The position numbers and the translations under genes are program-made. A stretch of 40,117 bases of DNA from a virus. The notes under the pieces were generated by a model, which was not told the origin of the DNA, ran no database searches, and worked only from the letters and a program-made list of their open reading frames with translations. Below are positions 353 through 38,433 of the stretch, piece by piece (within the stretch, counting starts at the first letter, position 1; each line of letters begins with the position of its first letter). The DNA is taken from positions 1 to 40,117 of the IMG/VR virus record IMGVR_UViG_3300009130_000065; one strand, given 5' to 3'.

Positions 353-3300
353 ATGGCAATAAGAATAGTAAGAAATGAAGCAGGGAACTGTATTAACTTT
401 TATGGTTCGTCTAACCCCACTTATTGGAACGCTTGTTTGAGTGGTCAAGTGGATAATGTAGACACTAACAGTGTTAACGTAATAAATGATATTATTACTT
501 CACAAACTGGGACAACACAGTATGAATTTTTTAGAGTTCCTTATACTGAATTCACAGACGCAGACGGTAATGGTTTTTCTAGCGCTCAAGAAGTAGCGGA
601 TTATATTACTGAAAAAGCTAATGTAGTTGGTTTAAGTGGTGAAGGTATAGACTTAACAGGTGAGACTGTTTGCTTTCAGTTGGACGCTACAAGTACTTCG
701 ATAGTATTAGACAATGGTTATCACTACGGAGTTAATACGATTAAAGCAGTAGCCGAAGGTGGTAACATCTCAATATTTTCTATTGATACTTCAAACAGTA
801 TTAAACACTTCTATAATTTAGAGGTCGGTAACGCTTGTGTTAATGGTTCTGTAGTCTCAGGTGGCTTAAATGACGTTATAAATACGTTGAATGAGTTGTT
901 TACTGTTGGAGCTTTTCAGTCTGTTGTAATATCTGACCCATTTAGTACAATGGTTGCAGATGTTGACGGTGTTGATATTGTTAACCCTAGTTATATTGGT
1001 AACGCTATTGACCCTGTTGGTGTTGATGTGTTTGGTTCTAACACTTCTGGTTCTTTAAACGGTTATTTATCTACTGAAACAATAGACCAAGCAGGCGAAT
1101 ATTTTACTTTTGATATTAGAGTTGAAGGCGTTATAGGATTCGGTTTAGTACATTCCCAAGCTTCTTACGATGCAGGTTATTATAGCGGTAACTCTACTTA
1201 CGCTAACCCTGCTAATTTTGGTACATATAATAGCCAGCACGGAGGTTTTCAATTTTCACACTGGTTTCACCCAACACCTAACGGCTCATGGACTAACTAC
1301 GGAGCTAACACTTCATATTCCATAAGGAGTGGCTGGTCTAACTTTAACGGTACTTCTGAGCAAGCTGATTGGTTAGCTGGTAACCCTATTAAAGTGAGAG
1401 TAGGATTAGACGCAAATGGATTTATTTCTATTGAAACTTTAAGAAATGGTACTGATTGGGTTGTTCATGTTAGAACTTCTTATCCTTCTGTTGAGGGTGT
1501 TGAATATAGATTAGGTATTAAAATGGGTGATACTAATGTAAGGTTAAACACTTTACCAAAAGTTCATTTATTAGAGCCTTCAGCACCTACTATGTACTTC
1601 AGATATATTGAGAGTCCTGACGGTAACTATCAATATCCTTTATTCGCAACAGAAGAAGAAGCTAACTATTACGATACTGTTGAGGGTGGTTCTGGGACTT
1701 CGCATTCTCATGTTTATGTCGATGACCCTACTAACACTACTTGGTATATGCCTGACACAAATAGCACAATGACTGCGACGGCACTCCCTACTAGCGCTCA
1801 GACTTTCGAAGGTAACGCTATTAATTGGACTGAGATTACTTCACTAACTAACGCTGATTTAGTGCCAGTTGCTTTTACCGACACTACTATAACGGTAGAC
1901 GAATTGAGTACTGTTAACTATCAATTAAGTCCTGTAGATGTAGGATACACGACTAGTATTGGTGGCATTCCTGCTTGGAGTTTAGTTAATGGAACTACTT
2001 TACAAGGTACGGCTCCAGAAGTAACAGGTGACAATGTATCTAACCCTAGTGATACTACAACGGTTACTGTTTACAGAACTAACTCATACGGTACTTCACA
2101 AGGTACTTTAACTATTAATATCACTAACCTAACAGCTCCTGTTGTAACACCTATAACTGGCGTAACCGATGAAGGTGGTACTGCTTTAATTGATTCTGAT
2201 ACTATGGCTGATGGTTCTGTAATATCTATAGATGAACAAGTAGGAGTAGGGCAAAGATTTGTAATTGAAAAAGAGTGGGTTGACACTTATGTGCTACCTA
2301 AGATTACATCTGGAACTGGAGCTAAAGCTGTATTTATTGGATTTCCTACTTCAAGTGCAAGTTGGTCTAGTGTTGGCTTTGATGACTTCTTAATAGGATA
2401 CCAATTTTACAGTGATGACACTACAAGAGCTCAAAATAATTGGAGATTAAGAACTATTTCTGGTGGTACTATTAGCAACAATGTAGGTGTAGGTGGTCAG
2501 ACTTCTGGGCTTTATGATTACGTATTTGTTAATGATGGAACCGACATTAAGTTTGGTTCATTAGTTGAGAGTCAAGGATTAAATGCAAGTACTTATGTAT
2601 ATAATTTTAGTGGTGTAGATTCTACTTGGAAGTACACAGGGGGGTTAACAGGTGTCTCTTCATCTAATAGGGATATAGTTATAGCTACTAGCGGTACTGA
2701 TTTAGATATTGACTTACAGTACTTTAACGAATACACTGAGCCCGTGGCCTCAACTATCTTAACTAACTGGAATAAAGCGCTAGACTTCTCAGGAAGTTCA
2801 GAAAGAGCCGTACAGGTTAATAATAATAGCACTTATAACACTCTTAAGATGAATGGCCTTGCTTCTACTGCTACTGCTCCCTCAGTTAGTGGTAATACTT
2901 CTAACAGTAGTTACGCGAGACCTTGGGCTACTGCAATAGTATTTAAGTCTGACAGACACAACTCAAACCAGCATATCTGGAACAGTGGAGAAGGCGCCTC
3001 TAGTGGTAATGACAATATATTTTTAAGACAGTCCGCTAATGGTCAGTTGTTCTTTGGTTGGGGTAGAGAAGGTTCTGGATATAACGAAGTTTACATAACA
3101 ACCGTTAACAGTAGTAACTGGTATGGTGTGTACATAGGATATAACGGGGCTAGGTTTAACGGGTCTAATGCAACGGCTTCTAATTTGTCTGACACTTTTG
3201 ATATTAGAGTAATGACTGACGAAAGCGGTGACAACTTTAACACTGTTTATTCTTTAGGAAATTTGCCAGGTAACTGGACTAATACAGGGGTTAGAATGGA

Positions 3301-3709
3301 TAGGGGTATCGGTGGAGACTTTACTATAGGTGGAAGAGGTTCGAACCGTTCTTTTCACGGTAAAATAGCTAGTATGGTTATTACTACTCTTAAATTAAAT
3401 GTATCTATGCCTAGCGACGCTGAAGTAAAACTAATGATAACAGACCCTAAGAAGTGGGAAGATGATTATTTAGTAGGTAATACTATTAGACAGGCTCAAT
3501 ACACTGGTAATGTTACTTACTCACCTTCTAACATTTACAATGGTTTTGGAGCCGTTCAGATGTGGTTAATGGGTGACGGTAATAATGACTCTTATTCAAA
3601 CATGATAAGAAACCAAATTTACCCTTCAGACCAAAATTGGACTAAATTGAACATGATATCGATGGTGTCTAATGACATACAGAACGTAACTATTAACGGA
3701 CTGTCTTAA
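353..3709 (+). CDS. Large modular tail fibre / receptor-binding protein (1118 aa)
   Basis: A 1118-aa protein rich in Asn, Ser, Thr and Gly, typical of adhesins and fibres. The N-terminal 100 residues form a compact domain ending in a helix (SSAQEVADYI), probably the attachment module to the tail. Residues around 450-600 look like putative-Ig (He_PIG-like) repeats with the pattern YQLSPVDVGYTTSIGGIPAWS. Two stretches around 200-400 and 800-1050 look like concanavalin/LamG-type beta-sandwiches. It follows another fibre gene and is closed by a strong terminator at 3719. It probably reads carbohydrate receptors on the host surface; the domain names are by eye. Confidence 0.7.
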   Translation: MAIRIVRNEAGNCINFYGSSNPTYWNACLSGQVDNVDTNSVNVINDIITSQTGTTQYEFFRVPYTEFTDADGNGFSSAQEVADYITEKANVVGLSGEGIDLTGETVCFQLDATSTSIVLDNGYHYGVNTIKAVAEGGNISIFSIDTSNSIKHFYNLEVGNACVNGSVVSGGLNDVINTLNELFTVGAFQSVVISDPFSTMVADVDGVDIVNPSYIGNAIDPVGVDVFGSNTSGSLNGYLSTETIDQAGEYFTFDIRVEGVIGFGLVHSQASYDAGYYSGNSTYANPANFGTYNSQHGGFQFSHWFHPTPNGSWTNYGANTSYSIRSGWSNFNGTSEQADWLAGNPIKVRVGLDANGFISIETLRNGTDWVVHVRTSYPSVEGVEYRLGIKMGDTNVRLNTLPKVHLLEPSAPTMYFRYIESPDGNYQYPLFATEEEANYYDTVEGGSGTSHSHVYVDDPTNTTWYMPDTNSTMTATALPTSAQTFEGNAINWTEITSLTNADLVPVAFTDTTITVDELSTVNYQLSPVDVGYTTSIGGIPAWSLVNGTTLQGTAPEVTGDNVSNPSDTTTVTVYRTNSYGTSQGTLTINITNLTAPVVTPITGVTDEGGTALIDSDTMADGSVISIDEQVGVGQRFVIEKEWVDTYVLPKITSGTGAKAVFIGFPTSSASWSSVGFDDFLIGYQFYSDDTTRAQNNWRLRTISGGTISNNVGVGGQTSGLYDYVFVNDGTDIKFGSLVESQGLNASTYVYNFSGVDSTWKYTGGLTGVSSSNRDIVIATSGTDLDIDLQYFNEYTEPVASTILTNWNKALDFSGSSERAVQVNNNSTYNTLKMNGLASTATAPSVSGNTSNSSYARPWATAIVFKSDRHNSNQHIWNSGEGASSGNDNIFLRQSANGQLFFGWGREGSGYNEVYITTVNSSNWYGVYIGYNGARFNGSNATASNLSDTFDIRVMTDESGDNFNTVYSLGNLPGNWTNTGVRMDRGIGGDFTIGGRGSNRSFHGKIASMVITTLKLNVSMPSDAEVKLMITDPKKWEDDYLVGNTIRQAQYTGNVTYSPSNIYNGFGAVQMWLMGDGNNDSYSNMIRNQIYPSDQNWTKLNMISMVSNDIQNVTINGLS

Positions 3710-5999: not shown

Positions 6000-8326
6000 A
6001 TGAAATAGTAATAAGAATACTTGACAACGATAATAACGTAAAAGGAGACTTAGAACTTTCTAACTACGAGAATTTCCCTTTGGCTATAACAAAAGGAATA
6101 GTTAACCTTGATAGTTTAAAAGATAGGACGGGTACGTACACTAAAAGCTTTAGAGTTCCTAACACTAAGAACAACGCCAGTCTTCTTTCTAATGTTGAGA
6201 ATATCAATAGTAGAAAAGACTTTAGAAGGTCACTAGATAGAAAACCCTGTGTTGTGTTGGTTAATAACAACCCAATAGAAAAGGGATTCGTTCAAGTTAG
6301 TAAGGTTTTTAACGGTTTCAACGTAGATAGTTTCGAGCTTGTTTTCTTTGGTAACAATATAGACTGGGTTAAAGACGCTTCTGGTTTAAAGGTTAATGAA
6401 ATACCGTTCAACAACTCAGAACAAACATACGACTTAACTTCTATAAGGTCCATTAATAATTCAGCTATAAACATTAACAACGCTGAAGACTTCGCTTATC
6501 CTTACGTAAGTAGAGGTGGGAATGAGTTAGCAACAGAAAAAAAGCTATCCACTGAAGACTTCACACCCTGCTTCTTCTTAGAAAAGATATTACTTAGGGG
6601 GTTTAACTCTTTAGGTTGGAATATAAATAGTACTTTCTTAGATTCTGAAAGCTCTAGAGGTTTAATCTGTGACCTTAACAGCGAAATGAAAGTTAGTCAA
6701 TCAACCATTGACGATTCTAAAGTGAAAACAACTAAAACTAGCGCTTTAGATATAACCTCAGAGTTCGACACTACGGGAACTACTTATAAAATGGTTTTTG
6801 ACGATGACGCTACGGGTGGGAATGAAGATATTAACGACGTTTACAATACTACTACAGGAGCTTATAAAGCTGACTCCACTGGTAGTTATACCATAGATTT
6901 AAAAATACCTCATAAAGTGGTTATTGGTGGCGCTTTCTTGAATGGTAGGTGGTACGTTGAAGTAAGAAAAGGAACAGATACAGTTTACGGCAATACTACA
7001 CTATTGAAGTCTATAGAGGTGTTATCGGATTTAACTCCGGCTTTATTGGATACTACGTTCGATGTTAAGTTACAGAAAGACGAAATATTAAGTATTCACG
7101 TCTTAAAGTTTAGGTTTAACACATCTGGTTCGGCCAACTTTCAAATAGGTACTTATTTAGTTGATTCACTTACTCAGTCGCCTAAATTTAACGCCTCTAG
7201 AAGCATAGACATAAAAGAAGACGACGTGTTCGATGTTAAAGAGTTAATCCCGGACTCCATAAGGTTAATAGACGTATTAAATGACTTTACTAGAATGTTC
7301 AATATTTACTATTGGACTGACGTTAAGACTAGGACTGTTTACTTCGAGCCTAGAGATTTATTCTTCAAGGATAGAGCAGACGCTATTAACTGGACTAATA
7401 AGATAGATATAAAAAATATGTACGAAGTTGATTATGTAACTTCTTACAAGAGAGATATGGTATTCGGTTATAAAGACGTAGATGGTGACGAATGGTTGAA
7501 GGGTTGGCAAAGTAAAAACAGACGAACCTACGCAGAATATACACACGAACTACCAAATAGATTTACAGAAGGTAAAACGGTAGTTAATTTAAGTCTATTT
7601 AGCGCTACATATCCTAGCGTATGTAAAGAGGCTACACTATTAAAAAACGAAGCTTTCACTTCTTTAAAGTGTTGGGGTGAATACTTAAATACAGAGGGTA
7701 TTCCTGAAGACAGAATAGACGGGTATAACCCGAGAGTTTTTAACTTCAAGAACTCAACTCAGTTGAACAAAGACGGCTCTAATAGAAGGATTACCTATTC
7801 CGACAACATAACGAGTAATTTTATACCTTTCGGAGTGTTTGAGCCTTATAATAATACCTATGTTGGTAATGGTTACAATTTATCCTTTACAGACACTACA
7901 AACGAAGATGGAACCACTCAAAAGGGGTTGTTTAATAACTTCTATTCTAAGATGCTCAAAAATATAGAAGAAGGTGGTCGTTTAATAGCTTACTTTAACC
8001 TAACTAGTTCAGATATTGAGAACCTAGATTTTAGGAAATTAGTATATTTAGACAACGATAGTAACATAAAAGGGTATTACCTAATAGAGAAAGTTATTGA
8101 CTATAAGCCCTTAAAGAATGGATTAACAAAGGTTAGTTTGTTTAAGTTTGAAAACTTAGGGAGCGTAGTAATAGACGGGGGGCAAAATGGAGCCAACGAC
8201 GTTGATACTGACGAAGGAGAAATACAAACGCCATTACAACCAATATTCGTTGAAGATGGTAACCAAATAATAGAAGTTTACGCATTAAACCCGTTAACGG
8301 GAATTTTAGAACCAGTTTATAAGTAA
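5996..8326 (+). CDS. Tail hub / baseplate protein (776 aa)
   Basis: The N-terminus carries a segment I associate with Bacteroidota phage tail proteins (RTGTYTKSFRVPNTKNN, near residues 43-60). A second recognisable stretch around 420-470 (DFTRMFNIYYWTDVKTRTVY followed by FEPRD and later INWTNKID) is also typical. Translation is coupled to the previous gene by the ATGA overlap, and the tape measure gene starts 4 bp after its stop. The most likely role is the hub or baseplate at the tail tip, inferred from conserved order rather than from a catalytic motif. Confidence 0.6.
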   Translation: MNEIVIRILDNDNNVKGDLELSNYENFPLAITKGIVNLDSLKDRTGTYTKSFRVPNTKNNASLLSNVENINSRKDFRRSLDRKPCVVLVNNNPIEKGFVQVSKVFNGFNVDSFELVFFGNNIDWVKDASGLKVNEIPFNNSEQTYDLTSIRSINNSAININNAEDFAYPYVSRGGNELATEKKLSTEDFTPCFFLEKILLRGFNSLGWNINSTFLDSESSRGLICDLNSEMKVSQSTIDDSKVKTTKTSALDITSEFDTTGTTYKMVFDDDATGGNEDINDVYNTTTGAYKADSTGSYTIDLKIPHKVVIGGAFLNGRWYVEVRKGTDTVYGNTTLLKSIEVLSDLTPALLDTTFDVKLQKDEILSIHVLKFRFNTSGSANFQIGTYLVDSLTQSPKFNASRSIDIKEDDVFDVKELIPDSIRLIDVLNDFTRMFNIYYWTDVKTRTVYFEPRDLFFKDRADAINWTNKIDIKNMYEVDYVTSYKRDMVFGYKDVDGDEWLKGWQSKNRRTYAEYTHELPNRFTEGKTVVNLSLFSATYPSVCKEATLLKNEAFTSLKCWGEYLNTEGIPEDRIDGYNPRVFNFKNSTQLNKDGSNRRITYSDNITSNFIPFGVFEPYNNTYVGNGYNLSFTDTTNEDGTTQKGLFNNFYSKMLKNIEEGGRLIAYFNLTSSDIENLDFRKLVYLDNDSNIKGYYLIEKVIDYKPLKNGLTKVSLFKFENLGSVVIDGGQNGANDVDTDEGEIQTPLQPIFVEDGNQIIEVYALNPLTGILEPVYK

Positions 8327-32731: not shown

Positions 32732-33106
32732 ATGAAAACTAAAAGAATAATAAACATAATCATCTTTATAATAGCTTCGTTAGTAATGCTTTCGAGTTGT
32801 TCTAAAGAAGATAACACAGATAGTTTGTCAGGAACCTCTTGGGGTTCTTACAAAGAAGGTCAAATATTGAAGTCTATAGTGTTTAGTGACTCAATAATGA
32901 CTTACACTACAAACGTAGAGTCAGACACAGTAAAAGACCTTTTTTATAATATTTCACTTACTGAGGATGGTTTTTATATTTACAACGACACTACTGATTA
33001 TTTTGTCTCGTATAAGAAATATATCAACTATAGCACTGGCGACAGAGTAAGGATATTTAAAGGATTAGATTTATTAGAGGGTGACTTATACACAGAAATA
33101 AAATAA
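32732..33106 (+). CDS. Lipoprotein with surface-export signal (124 aa)
   Basis: A signal peptide (FIIASLVMLSS) ends in a lipobox, and the lipidated Cys is followed by S-K-E-D-N. C-x-K-(D/E)-(D/E) is the lipoprotein export signal that places lipoproteins on the outer face of the outer membrane in Flavobacteriia. The mature part (GTSWGSYKEGQILKSIVFSD) looks like a small lipocalin-type beta domain. Made early in infection, it could shield receptors and exclude other phages; that role is inference. Confidence 0.7.
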   Translation: MKTKRIINIIIFIIASLVMLSSCSKEDNTDSLSGTSWGSYKEGQILKSIVFSDSIMTYTTNVESDTVKDLFYNISLTEDGFYIYNDTTDYFVSYKKYINYSTGDRVRIFKGLDLLEGDLYTEIK

Positions 33107-35480: not shown

Positions 35481-35617
35481 CACCTATTGACAGTGTTTAC
35501 AGTACTAATTTGTGGGACGTTTTAACCTTTATAAGCATAGAACACGCTGAAAAGACCTACGAAAGTGAATTACATAAACAATCTATTGACGAACAAAACA
35601 AAAAGAACAGAAGATGA
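35315..35617 (+). CDS. -1 frame extension of the chaperone-like gene (100 aa)
   Basis: The frame continues from the T-run as FARTYEQITKVFSNLFNG and contains a well-formed helical domain (KGLYWNIKAYKIAEKGIFNK and TNLWDVLTFISIEHAEKTYE) of the type seen as the C-terminal part of tail chaperones in Bacteroidota phages. The only independent start is a GTG at 35306 with no leader, so production by frameshift is more likely than separate initiation. The next gene overlaps its end by 4 nt. Confidence 0.6.
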   Translation, partial: FARTYEQITKVFSNLFNGKASKPTNTQSESIVKGLYWNIKAYKIAEKGIFNKKGLTPIDSVYSTNLWDVLTFISIEHAEKTYESELHKQSIDEQNKKNRR

Positions 35618-35829
35618 GTAAGAAGGATTTTTTACAAGAGATTTTAGACGCTTGTGCTTTATTTCATTATGAAGTTATGGGCGCTTTTAGATATTACACT
35701 ATAAAGGCTTACACGACTCATTTTGTGCAGGTTACAGTGATACATGTATGTCAAGAACATCAATACACAGAGGTTTTTGACTTCGAAAATAACGAGTGTT
35801 TAATTGATGAAATGTTGACTAAATTGTAA
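35614..35829 (+). CDS. Small hypothetical protein (71 aa)
   Basis: An alpha/beta protein (FLQEILDACALFHYEVMGAF then VQVTVIHVCQEHQYTEVFDF) coupled by ATGA to the frameshift extension. The family was not recognised. It is the last gene before promoter module 5. Confidence 0.6.
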   Translation: MSKKDFLQEILDACALFHYEVMGAFRYYTIKAYTTHFVQVTVIHVCQEHQYTEVFDFENNECLIDEMLTKL

Positions 35830-35855: not shown

Positions 35856-35896
35856 TTTGCAGGGTATTAAAAAAGTGTTATCTTTGATTATATCAA
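35856..35896 (+). promoter_or_regulatory. Early promoter module 5 (TTTG-N19-TATCTTTG)
   Basis: TTTG at 35856, TATCTTTG at 35879 and TTGAT/ATCAA at 35884-35896. The ATG at 35916 is 29 nt after the box. The first transcript is short and is ended by a terminator at 36052. Confidence 0.87.
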
Positions 35897-35915: not shown

Positions 35916-36047
35916 ATGGAGTTACAAGATTTAATAAAAATTTACGAAGCATTTGAAAGAGAGAGCGAAAGAAGAGAATTAACAGCTCAAGAAATGAAAA
36001 TCAAAGAAAAGTATTATTTTTTAATTCAAAAGGAGCTATTTAATTAA
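35916..36047 (+). CDS. Small helical early protein (43 aa)
   Basis: A 44-codon frame placed exactly 29 nt after the -7 box of module 5, as for the other module-driven genes. The product is a charged helix (LIKIYEAFERESERRELTAQ). Alone between promoter and terminator, it may be made in large amount early. Function unknown. Confidence 0.6.
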   Translation: MELQDLIKIYEAFERESERRELTAQEMKIKEKYYFLIQKELFN

Positions 36048-36051
36048 AAAC

Positions 36052-36070
36052 AAGCCCTTCGGGGCTTTTT
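36052..36070 (+). terminator. Terminator with TTCG tetraloop
   Basis: AAGCCC-TTCG-GGGCTT is followed by T-rich sequence. It ends the short transcript of promoter module 5. The secreted-protein gene starts 13 bp later and may depend on read-through. Confidence 0.9.
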
Positions 36071-36082
36071 AAAAACAAAAAA

Positions 36083-36889
36083 ATGAAAAAACTAATATTA
36101 ATAACACTAACAATTTTAAGAATAAACGCTTTAGCTCAGTGTGGAACGGGTGACTATGTTAATCCTGTTTCGCTTCCTGCTTCCTTGGTTTTATTCTCTG
36201 GCGATACTTTAGCGATAAGCCAAGACGTAAACTACGAGAATGTATCTATTACAGTAATGTCTGGGGGTGCTATAAATATCTGCAACGGGGCGCAGTTTAA
36301 CATTCAAGGTTCATTAACTATATTTGAAGGTGGGTTAATAAACGTATTCGATTGCGGTACTTACATAAATGTAGAGGGGTCTTACTTTGACGCTTACCAG
36401 ACTTATCAAATAGACTTGTATTGTAAAGACTGTTACAAAGATGAATTACTAACTGTTAACGGTTCTCAGTTCGGGGGTGAGGTTAACTGTGTTAATCCTT
36501 TACCAGTAGAGCTAATATCTTACTCATGTAATACAAAGGGTGTTTACTGGGTTACTGCTTCAGAAGTTAACTCTAGTCACTTTATAGTGGAAACTTCTAA
36601 CGATGGTGTTAAATGGATTGAACTAGACTACATTTACGCTATGGGAAATACTACAGAGTTGACTTATTACAACTATGAAGGTACTAAAGACACTTATACG
36701 AGGGTAGTTCAGTACGATATAGATGGCACCTCTGAAACATTTGATATTTTACTTTGTGGAGATAACCAGAAAGAAGAAGTTAAAGTGTTGTACTATACAG
36801 ATGCTTCAGGTAGAATTGTAAACAAGGATTCTAGAGGATTTAAAATAGCGGTTTACAGTGACGGGACTACTAAGAAGATTTTAAACTAA
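36083..36889 (+). CDS. Secreted protein resembling type IX secretion substrates (268 aa)
   Basis: A signal peptide (KKLILITLTILRINALA) is followed by Gln, the usual residue after cleavage in Bacteroidota exports. Residues 20-125 are beta-rich with several Cys. The next part, NPLPVELISYSC, then WVTASEVNSSHFIVETSNDG, is the adhesin-like domain that precedes the C-terminal sorting domain in many T9SS cargo proteins. The end (YYTDASGRIVNKDSRGFKIA, then SDGTTKKILN) matches the type A sorting domain pattern. The phage thus seems to send a host-like protein through the host T9SS to the cell surface. Origin by capture from a host is likely. Confidence 0.72.
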   Translation: MKKLILITLTILRINALAQCGTGDYVNPVSLPASLVLFSGDTLAISQDVNYENVSITVMSGGAINICNGAQFNIQGSLTIFEGGLINVFDCGTYINVEGSYFDAYQTYQIDLYCKDCYKDELLTVNGSQFGGEVNCVNPLPVELISYSCNTKGVYWVTASEVNSSHFIVETSNDGVKWIELDYIYAMGNTTELTYYNYEGTKDTYTRVVQYDIDGTSETFDILLCGDNQKEEVKVLYYTDASGRIVNKDSRGFKIAVYSDGTTKKILN

Positions 36890-36903: not shown

Positions 36904-37617
36904 ATGAACTATCCAAGAGTATTAATAGGATTACCTACAAGCGATGTTAAAGACTATTGTGTAGAAAGATTCCTAAAGCAAATAACTAATTTTACTTATC
37001 CAAACTATGATATATTTATAGTAGATAACAGCAAGGATAAAAAGCACGTAAAGAAATTCCATAAGAGAGGTATTAAAGCCGTACATGAGCCTTTAAACGG
37101 AGATTTAAGAGAAGAACTCGCAAGACATCAAAACATTATAAGAGAATACTTCTTAAATGGCGATTATGATTATTTATTTATGTTAGAGAGCGATGTCTTT
37201 ACTGGTGAATGTATAATAGAAAATATGGTTTCTTATGCTGAAGTTTACGGTGCTGGAGCGGTCACTTGTACCTACCCAATAATAAGAGATAATGAACCGA
37301 CTTTATGCCTTACATCTACAACAGACTTTAGAGGTGTAAGAAGTGAAAAGATGTTAGAGCGTTCACATGGTTTTAGGATAATGGGTCAAGGTGCTTTAGA
37401 TATATCAAAACTATTAGACGACCCAGATTCAAGAATAACTGCTACGGGTATCGGTTGTACTTTATTTAGAAAAGAAGCGTTAGAGCTTGTAAAGTTTAGA
37501 ACAGACCTCAGCTTAAATCATAGAGCTTTTAGTGATAGCTTTATTTTTACAGATATTCAGAATTTCGGGTTTAGGGTAATGATTGACAGTGATGTAATTT
37601 GTGAACACGTTAAATAA
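36904..37617 (+). CDS. Glycosyltransferase, GT-A/family 2-like (237 aa)
   Basis: VLIGLPTSDVKDYCVERFLK and YDIFIVDNSKDKKHVKKF form the nucleotide-sugar-binding half of a GT-A fold; YLFMLESDVF holds the acidic motif standing for DxD; GIGCTLFRKEALELV and FTDIQNFGFRVMIDSDVICE complete the acceptor side. It has no signal peptide and probably acts in the cytoplasm, on phage DNA, on virion proteins or on host surface-glycan precursors. It is in one operon with the secreted and lipoprotein genes, which favours surface change; this is inference. Confidence 0.75.
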   Translation: MNYPRVLIGLPTSDVKDYCVERFLKQITNFTYPNYDIFIVDNSKDKKHVKKFHKRGIKAVHEPLNGDLREELARHQNIIREYFLNGDYDYLFMLESDVFTGECIIENMVSYAEVYGAGAVTCTYPIIRDNEPTLCLTSTTDFRGVRSEKMLERSHGFRIMGQGALDISKLLDDPDSRITATGIGCTLFRKEALELVKFRTDLSLNHRAFSDSFIFTDIQNFGFRVMIDSDVICEHVK

Positions 37618-37869: not shown

Positions 37870-38433
37870 ATGAGAAAAGTAATATTATTAACAGTAGCAG
37901 TATTAACTATGTCTATTTTTTTAGGTTCATGTAGAAAGCCTAGAGTGGACACTATTCATACAATAATAACAAATAACGACACTATTAGAGTGTTTGCAGT
38001 AGATACTATTCATAGCATCGATACTATCCATAGTATTGACACTATTTACCAAGTGAATAACGATACGGTAACAAATGTGGACACTATCTATGTAGATAAA
38101 AAGACTTACAGCGTTCAAGGAGCTTGGAAGTATTTAACTGATGACTCACACGCTGACTATCCAGACCAAGACATCTATAGTTATTTTTTATTTAGCGGTT
38201 CTATTTTATACATTACGCAATACACTGAAAACGAAAACGGAGTAGGTACTCAAGTAGGTGAAATATACACTTACGGTATAGAGCATTTAAGCGAGGGTAG
38301 AATGAGACTTACAAGTACAGAGAATAACGAGCAGTTTGAGTGTATATGGTACCACATGCAAAACGGTAATGTATTAATAATGAACTTTCAAGGTATGGAC
38401 GACCCATTTACAATAAGTACCTTTAAACATTAA
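37870..38433 (+). CDS. Lipoprotein with DTI-repeat stalk (187 aa)
   Basis: A signal peptide (VILLTVAVLTMSIFLGS) ends in a lipobox; Cys is followed by R-K-P-R, so the surface-export signal is absent and a periplasm-facing location is more likely. Residues about 25-75 hold repeated Asp-Thr-Ile units, with DTIHSI twice at an 18-bp DNA period. The C-terminal part (WKYLTDDSHADYPDQDIYSY and beta strands) resembles a lipocalin-like domain, as in the lipoprotein at 32732. A defence or exclusion role is possible but unproven. Confidence 0.65.
   Translation: MRKVILLTVAVLTMSIFLGSCRKPRVDTIHTIITNNDTIRVFAVDTIHSIDTIHSIDTIYQVNNDTVTNVDTIYVDKKTYSVQGAWKYLTDDSHADYPDQDIYSYFLFSGSILYITQYTENENGVGTQVGEIYTYGIEHLSEGRMRLTSTENNEQFECIWYHMQNGNVLIMNFQGMDDPFTISTFKH

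Follow-up and report, generated by a model that had tools for sequence, protein, structure and literature searches.

Short C-terminal domains (CTDs) of the type IX secretion system (T9SS) have been described in Prevotella intermedia, where 48 of them, 43–55 residues in length, are predicted to form a single three-stranded sheet equivalent to strands 3, 6 and 7 of the long CTDs (PMC11969387). They possess conserved glycines in motifs B and D, a GxY/N followed by an isoleucine in motif D and a basic motif E; cleavage and sugar attachment have been shown for some of them, and the authors of that study knew of short CTDs from P. intermedia alone (PMC11969387). In the P. gingivalis protein HBP35, the smallest portion of the CTD that still drives export of GFP consists of its last 22 residues, which contain motifs D and E (PMC3120885).

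Phages encode T9SS cargo as well. Cargo with type A sorting domains was reported from Cryophage (PMC7468147) and T9SS sorting domains from contigs of crAss-like cluster 2 (PMC6949934), so that the initial annotation of the locus treated here overstated the novelty of phage export by this route. The Cryophage genes resemble our case in having T9SS sorting ends, in varying between strains and in their proposed use of the host system, but they encode enzymes or PA14 proteins whose type A domains are recognised (PMC7468147), whereas the present protein combines a short, unrecognised end with a different cargo. Phage surface proteins of superinfection exclusion and lysogenic conversion likewise come from accessory genes, are exported to the envelope, as is predicted for the present protein, and may change the surface; they bear no sequence relation to it.

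Herein we describe the gene at 36083–36889 of a virus record of 40,117 bases (IMGVR_UViG_3300009130_000065), which was analysed at its full length and is called the window below. In our judgement this accessory gene of the phage probably encodes a type IX cargo protein that bears a short C-terminal signal and is either displayed by the infected cell or released from it. The novelty lies in a short signal that had gone unrecognised, in how widely it occurs, and in two viral proteins (L043/L070) that form a natural swap pair, rather than in phage T9SS cargo itself.

The phage genome and the variable slot

The window is a phage genome, as the initial annotation had held, with genes for the terminase large subunit (TerL), portal and tape measure and a 119-bp exact terminal repeat. 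Among named phages, its terminase is nearest to that of Croceibacter phage P2559Y (41.6% identity), followed closely by those of Cellulophaga, Chryseobacterium and other phages, and this kinship, an indirect pointer, makes a host within the Flavobacteriia likely. Megablast of the 20–40 kb half against phages returned no match. The gene, present as annotated, occupies a variable slot whose features are collected in Table 1.

Table 1. Features of the variable slot and of the gene that it holds, in window positions
Feature	Positions	Strand	Basis or remark
Upstream neighbour, left border of slot	35614..35829	+	Homologues in L006, L007, L008
Promoter-like element TTTG-N19-TATCTTTG, flavobacterial-type	35856..35886	+	Sequence and alignment with L006, L007
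43-aa ORF before the gene, in slot	35916..36047	+	Sequence
Terminator-like hairpin AAGCCC-TTCG-GGGCTT, then T run	36052..36070	+	12 bases before start codon
Whole gene, putative secreted protein with LPVEL domain and short C-terminal end	36083..36889	+	ORF call; ATG, 268 aa
Signal peptide, aa 1-18, predicted cut before Q19	36083..36136	+	Sequence; heuristic h-region score 3.03
N-terminal beta-rich (solenoid-like) domain, aa 31-98	36173..36376	+	AlphaFold2, full length
LPVEL / Fn3-like domain, aa 140-225	36500..36757	+	AlphaFold2 of module and hhalign
Short C-terminal end, putative short T9SS signal, aa 227-268	36761..36886	+	Leave-one-out HMM, AlphaFold2
Downstream neighbour, right border of slot	36904..37617	+	Weak glycosyltransferase-2 similarity (PF00535, E 5e-4, below cut-off)

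Two sister phages, L006 and L007, whose terminases are 84% identical to that of the window, allow the slot to be compared. Both share the promoter-like element, which we take to fit the flavobacterial promoter consensus, and keep TATATTTGATATATCAA; at the place of the 43-aa ORF, L006, L007 and L008 have other small ORFs. A hairpin similar to that of the window is found in L006. The position of the window's terminator-like hairpin, directly before the gene, bears on the level of expression and counts against a reading as T9SS cargo. The downstream neighbour has homologues with 71–73% identity in L006 and L007 and with about 30% identity in L009 and L010, while no homologue of the gene itself was found between the conserved flanks in L006 and L007. 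Since the sister phages are without it at this site and keep the flanks, the gene is accessory cargo for the phage and lies outside its core. A functional link between the glycosyltransferase-like neighbour and the cargo gene was considered and rejected, because the sister phages have the former without the latter.

The gene is no one-off, as UniProt A0A516KXX7, a viral protein of 268 aa in BFVD and the apparent ortholog, matches it along the entire length in a structural alignment, with 53% identity. In its look alone the gene is bacterial, which would suit host contamination or mis-assembly that had brought a gene of bacterial origin into a phage contig. Such an origin is barely conceivable given the exact terminal repeat, the phage genes on both sides, the flanks conserved in the sister phages, this full-length viral relative, and the terminases that exceed the Pfam cut-off in 10 of 45 related viral records (many of the remainder being fragments).

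Elsewhere in the window, the genes at 32732–33106 and 37870–38433 have lipobox-like starts (LSSC and LGSC) and are candidates for exported phage lipoproteins. The gene at 353–3709, upstream of the tail genes, encodes a protein of 1118 aa without a significant family match and lies in the region that differs most between the sister phages.

Architecture of the encoded protein

The protein starts with MKKLILITLTILRINALA, a signal-peptide-like stretch after which QC follows, so that the glutamine noted in the initial annotation does stand behind the predicted cut (after ..NALA). A lipoprotein reading of ..LAQC was rejected, as Q occupies position -1 and the lipobox [LVI][AST][GAS]C is not matched. 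The PLPVELISY-type domain was likewise confirmed: the stretch LPVELISYSC...WVTASEVNSSHF starts at aa 140, and in a profile-to-profile comparison (hhalign) the phage LPVEL part matches the bacterial LPVEL domain with prob 100 and E 2e-44. The C-terminus, ASGRIVNKDSRGFKIAVYSDGTTKKILN, is followed by the stop codon and contains a motif-B-like G243-R, a motif-D-like G252-x-x-I255 and a motif-E-like K264-K265.

AlphaFold2, run on the LPVEL and short-end module with 30 aligned relatives, gave a mean pLDDT of 91, with seven strands in the LPVEL domain and three further strands in the short end (module residues 98–102, 116–121 and 126–130; pLDDT ~95). The full-length model, of lower certainty in the N-part and linker, places strands at residues 34–98 with pLDDT ~66–85 by blocks of ten, no homologues being in the alignment; a poorly ordered linker (~aa 104–139) joins the N-part to the LPVEL domain. 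Foldseek against the PDB returned general Ig/Fn3 matches only, none with E <1e-3, and a search of IMG/VR with the whole protein found no close relatives.

The short end compared with known sorting domains

The initial annotation took the C-terminus for a T9SS-like sorting end and proposed a search against type A profiles, the lack of a match being held to speak against it. A sorting-type end is indeed there, but by sequence model it is not a type A domain: neither TIGR04183 (cut-off 23 bits) nor Pfam matched it at E up to 10. The profile was working, as it matched all 17 sampled bacterial tails behind the same LPVEL domain as well as the huge-phage protein P0003 (E 5e-8), and type A membership was therefore rejected. 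None of 30 phage modules matched TIGR04183, nor did any of 18 bacterial short-end tails match TIGR04183 or NCBIfam. Structure prediction, another check that had been suggested, did yield C-terminal strands, although only three of them over ~42 aa, against about 70–100 aa and a seven-stranded Ig-like sandwich in type A domains.

Type A domains (TIGR04183 Por_Secre_tail, PF18962) and the short end share their place behind the LPVEL domain and the register of motifs B and D. On the other hand, the short end is half as long and has neither the PNP strand nor a profile match. Two profile comparisons with type A tails gave weak matches, one at prob 59% with motif B only, the other at prob 7% but in the motif B/D register; in view of this weak link, we describe the short end as a putative short T9SS CTD in its manner of working and do not class it among the type A domains.

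The likeness to the short CTDs of P. intermedia is closer in several respects. The length is comparable (~40 aa here), a three-stranded sheet at the extreme C-terminus is predicted in both, and both glycines (G243, G252), the isoleucine (I255) and the basic motif E (K264/K265) recur; in both, short ends replace long CTDs inside one organism or one group. The differences are the other lineage, a DG turn after motif D in the phage-type ends, and the loss in most of the present family of the motif B tyrosine and the motif D GxY/N (GxV/GxK-I instead). The 268-aa protein itself has T239 in place of the tyrosine and GFK in place of GxY/N. The relatives L063, L086, L087 and L091 retain GIY or GLY in motif D and bridge the gap to P. 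intermedia. The residues T239 and GFK count against T9SS cargo, as do the negative TIGR04183 and Pfam searches and the weak type A link.

The strongest single piece of evidence that the two kinds of end may share a job is, at the level of sequence, a pair of viral-contig proteins, L043:1987-3285 and L070:5107-6537. They are 68% identical over 406 residues, covering the cargo and the LPVEL domain, yet the tail of L043 is a short end whereas that of L070 is a type A domain (TIGR04183, 24.8 bits). The same place in an otherwise same protein is what would be expected if the short end and the type A domain did the same job.

Spread of the short end and its possible role at the cell surface

A set of viral proteins was seeded by four huge-phage matches and widened by profile, from IMG/VR contigs that are in part short; 49 non-redundant members, including the 268-aa protein, carry the short end at the C-terminus. 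Its pattern is K-x-I-V-K-x-x-N-L-x-G-Q-E-V ... G-x-x-I-x-x-Y-x-D-G-T-x-x-K, with the stop codon always adjoining; the motif D glycine is invariant and the motif B glycine is present in >90% of the 37 rows of the alignment. When the window was scanned in six frames with an HMM built without it, its end scored 37.1 bits at E 3e-11, the next best match having E 0.86, and 5,000 shuffles of the end's 48 residues reached at most 14.8 bits against 41.5 for the real ones. The presence of the short end in the 268-aa protein is thus beyond chance.

Nearly all phage short ends stand behind an LPVEL domain. Signal-peptide-like starts, scored by a simple heuristic rather than SignalP, were found in 55 of 57 complete non-redundant LPVEL-bearing viral proteins (few of them long-tailed), 53 having the xxxQ pattern. 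The N-parts of the relatives contain MAM, CUB, GEVED and Fn3 domains, which are extracellular binding domains. In one huge-phage homologue, L003:1688-3366 (LR745206.1), the signal peptide and N-part lie in a different frame from the LPVEL domain and short end, a split due to a frameshift or a sequencing error. In the T4-like contigs L041, L044, L046, L047 and L048 the short-end gene is preceded, either immediately or two genes away, by a gene for a gp23-like major capsid protein (PF07068, E 1e-72 for L041). The phage L057 encodes a subtilisin (6822–8291, minus strand; PF00082, E 1e-29) that has its own signal peptide and short end, VVVLDMNGKVTELNNALPGMYFIVDSGIIIKRIYKN. Homologues occur in L058, L042 and L044, and in all of these phages the subtilisin gene adjoins the one that encodes the LPVEL domain and short end; its product may be another T9SS cargo in the form of a secreted protease.

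The neighbourhood of the capsid gene in several T4-like relatives, together with the frequency of Fn3/Ig domains on virions, would fit a tail protein or capsid decoration that merely has an Fn3-like domain. This is very unlikely, as signal peptides in almost all of the viral relatives are hard to reconcile with virion assembly in the cytoplasm and the sister phages have no such gene.

In bacteria, every one of ~90 ORFs from genome_contigs (79 best loci) has a long tail behind the LPVEL domain, and the distance from the domain Trp to the end is 149–169 aa in these long-tailed ORFs, against 114–124 aa in 58 short-end viral ORFs. The idea that the short end is confined to phages, drawn from these tails, was rejected after a profile search of genomes. 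In a phylum sample, 5 of 297 genomes matched, with true short ends in only two, the other matches lying 38 residues from the stop in two genomes and deep inside a protein in one. In the Crocinitomicaceae, the family of Brumimicrobium aurantiacum, short ends were found in 77 of 120 genomes, with up to 13 copies per genome (the genomes concerned fall within G303–G420, loci L195–L224). The T9SS translocon protein SprA is present in 119 of the 120. In 34 bacterial examples the short end lies 0–2 residues from the stop codon, and the phage and bacterial modules match by profile with E 2e-40, aligned through their last residues.

In SprA-bearing bacteria the short end occurs on families of secreted enzymes. 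An endonuclease I is among the carriers in the Crocinitomicaceae, and the phylum sample has, in a different genome, a GH16 protein with CBM48. Both of these proteins are without the LPVEL domain, which indicates that the short end is a module of its own. The short ends of the Crocinitomicaceae are apparently an unannotated class of T9SS signal. A tree of the module had too few columns and left the 268-aa protein unplaced on a very long branch; its labels require ~11 changes for viruses, at least 2 of them forced, from which it appears that the module was transferred more than once, the donor being unnamed.

The constant company of the LPVEL domain in phages, the failure of type A models and the missing GxY could also mean that the C-terminal strands cap the Fn3-like domain structurally instead of acting as a T9SS signal, the protein being exported to the periplasm only or by some other secretion route. 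We consider this unlikely in view of the endonuclease I, GH16 and L187 ends, which have no LPVEL domain to cap, and of the exchange for a type A domain between L043 and L070.

In the T9SS cargo reading that we prefer, the Sec signal peptide would take the 268-aa protein to the periplasm, where its 40-residue C-terminal end would be recognised, instead of a type A domain with its usual 80 residues, as a short sorting signal by the translocon of the T9SS and by PorV or an analogous shuttle. The beta-solenoid and Fn3-like protein would then end on the surface of the infected cell, or be shed from it. We infer secretion by the T9SS, shuttle binding, surface display and a biological role at the surface from these features. 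With the MAM, CUB, GEVED and Fn3 domains of the relatives in mind, a surface adhesin or coat is the simplest reading and the most likely role, for example in polysaccharide binding or receptor masking; exclusion of other phages and aggregation of cells may also be served.

T9SS and gliding proteins are phage-sensitivity factors in flavobacteria. Along with the several phage proteins that share the signal and lack the usual motif D tyrosine, this would suit a decoy, in which the shuttle or translocon would stay occupied by the unreleased short end and fewer of the host adhesins that act as phage receptors would be displayed, with superinfection exclusion as the outcome. A decoy is highly improbable, since the large and varied N-terminal binding domains point to cargo acting outside and bacteria put the same end on secreted-enzyme families.

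Taking the T9SS cargo reading further, we tentatively propose, as one joint and quite possibly mistaken suggestion, that the short end is a separate and as yet unnamed class of T9SS signal, bound by lineage to Crocinitomicaceae-like bacteria and used by many of their phages (siphovirus-like, T4-like and huge) in a general strategy of surface remodelling, in which varied binding proteins and possibly proteases would be placed on the infected cell for receptor masking, superinfection exclusion or aggregation. If this is true, short CTDs extend beyond P. intermedia, and annotation overlooks such cargo because its export tag has half the usual length. The short end would be a minimal natural T9SS signal and, together with the swap pair, would offer access to what the translocon reads. 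Phages of aquatic Bacteroidota would then systematically change the surface of their host cells through the host's own T9SS.
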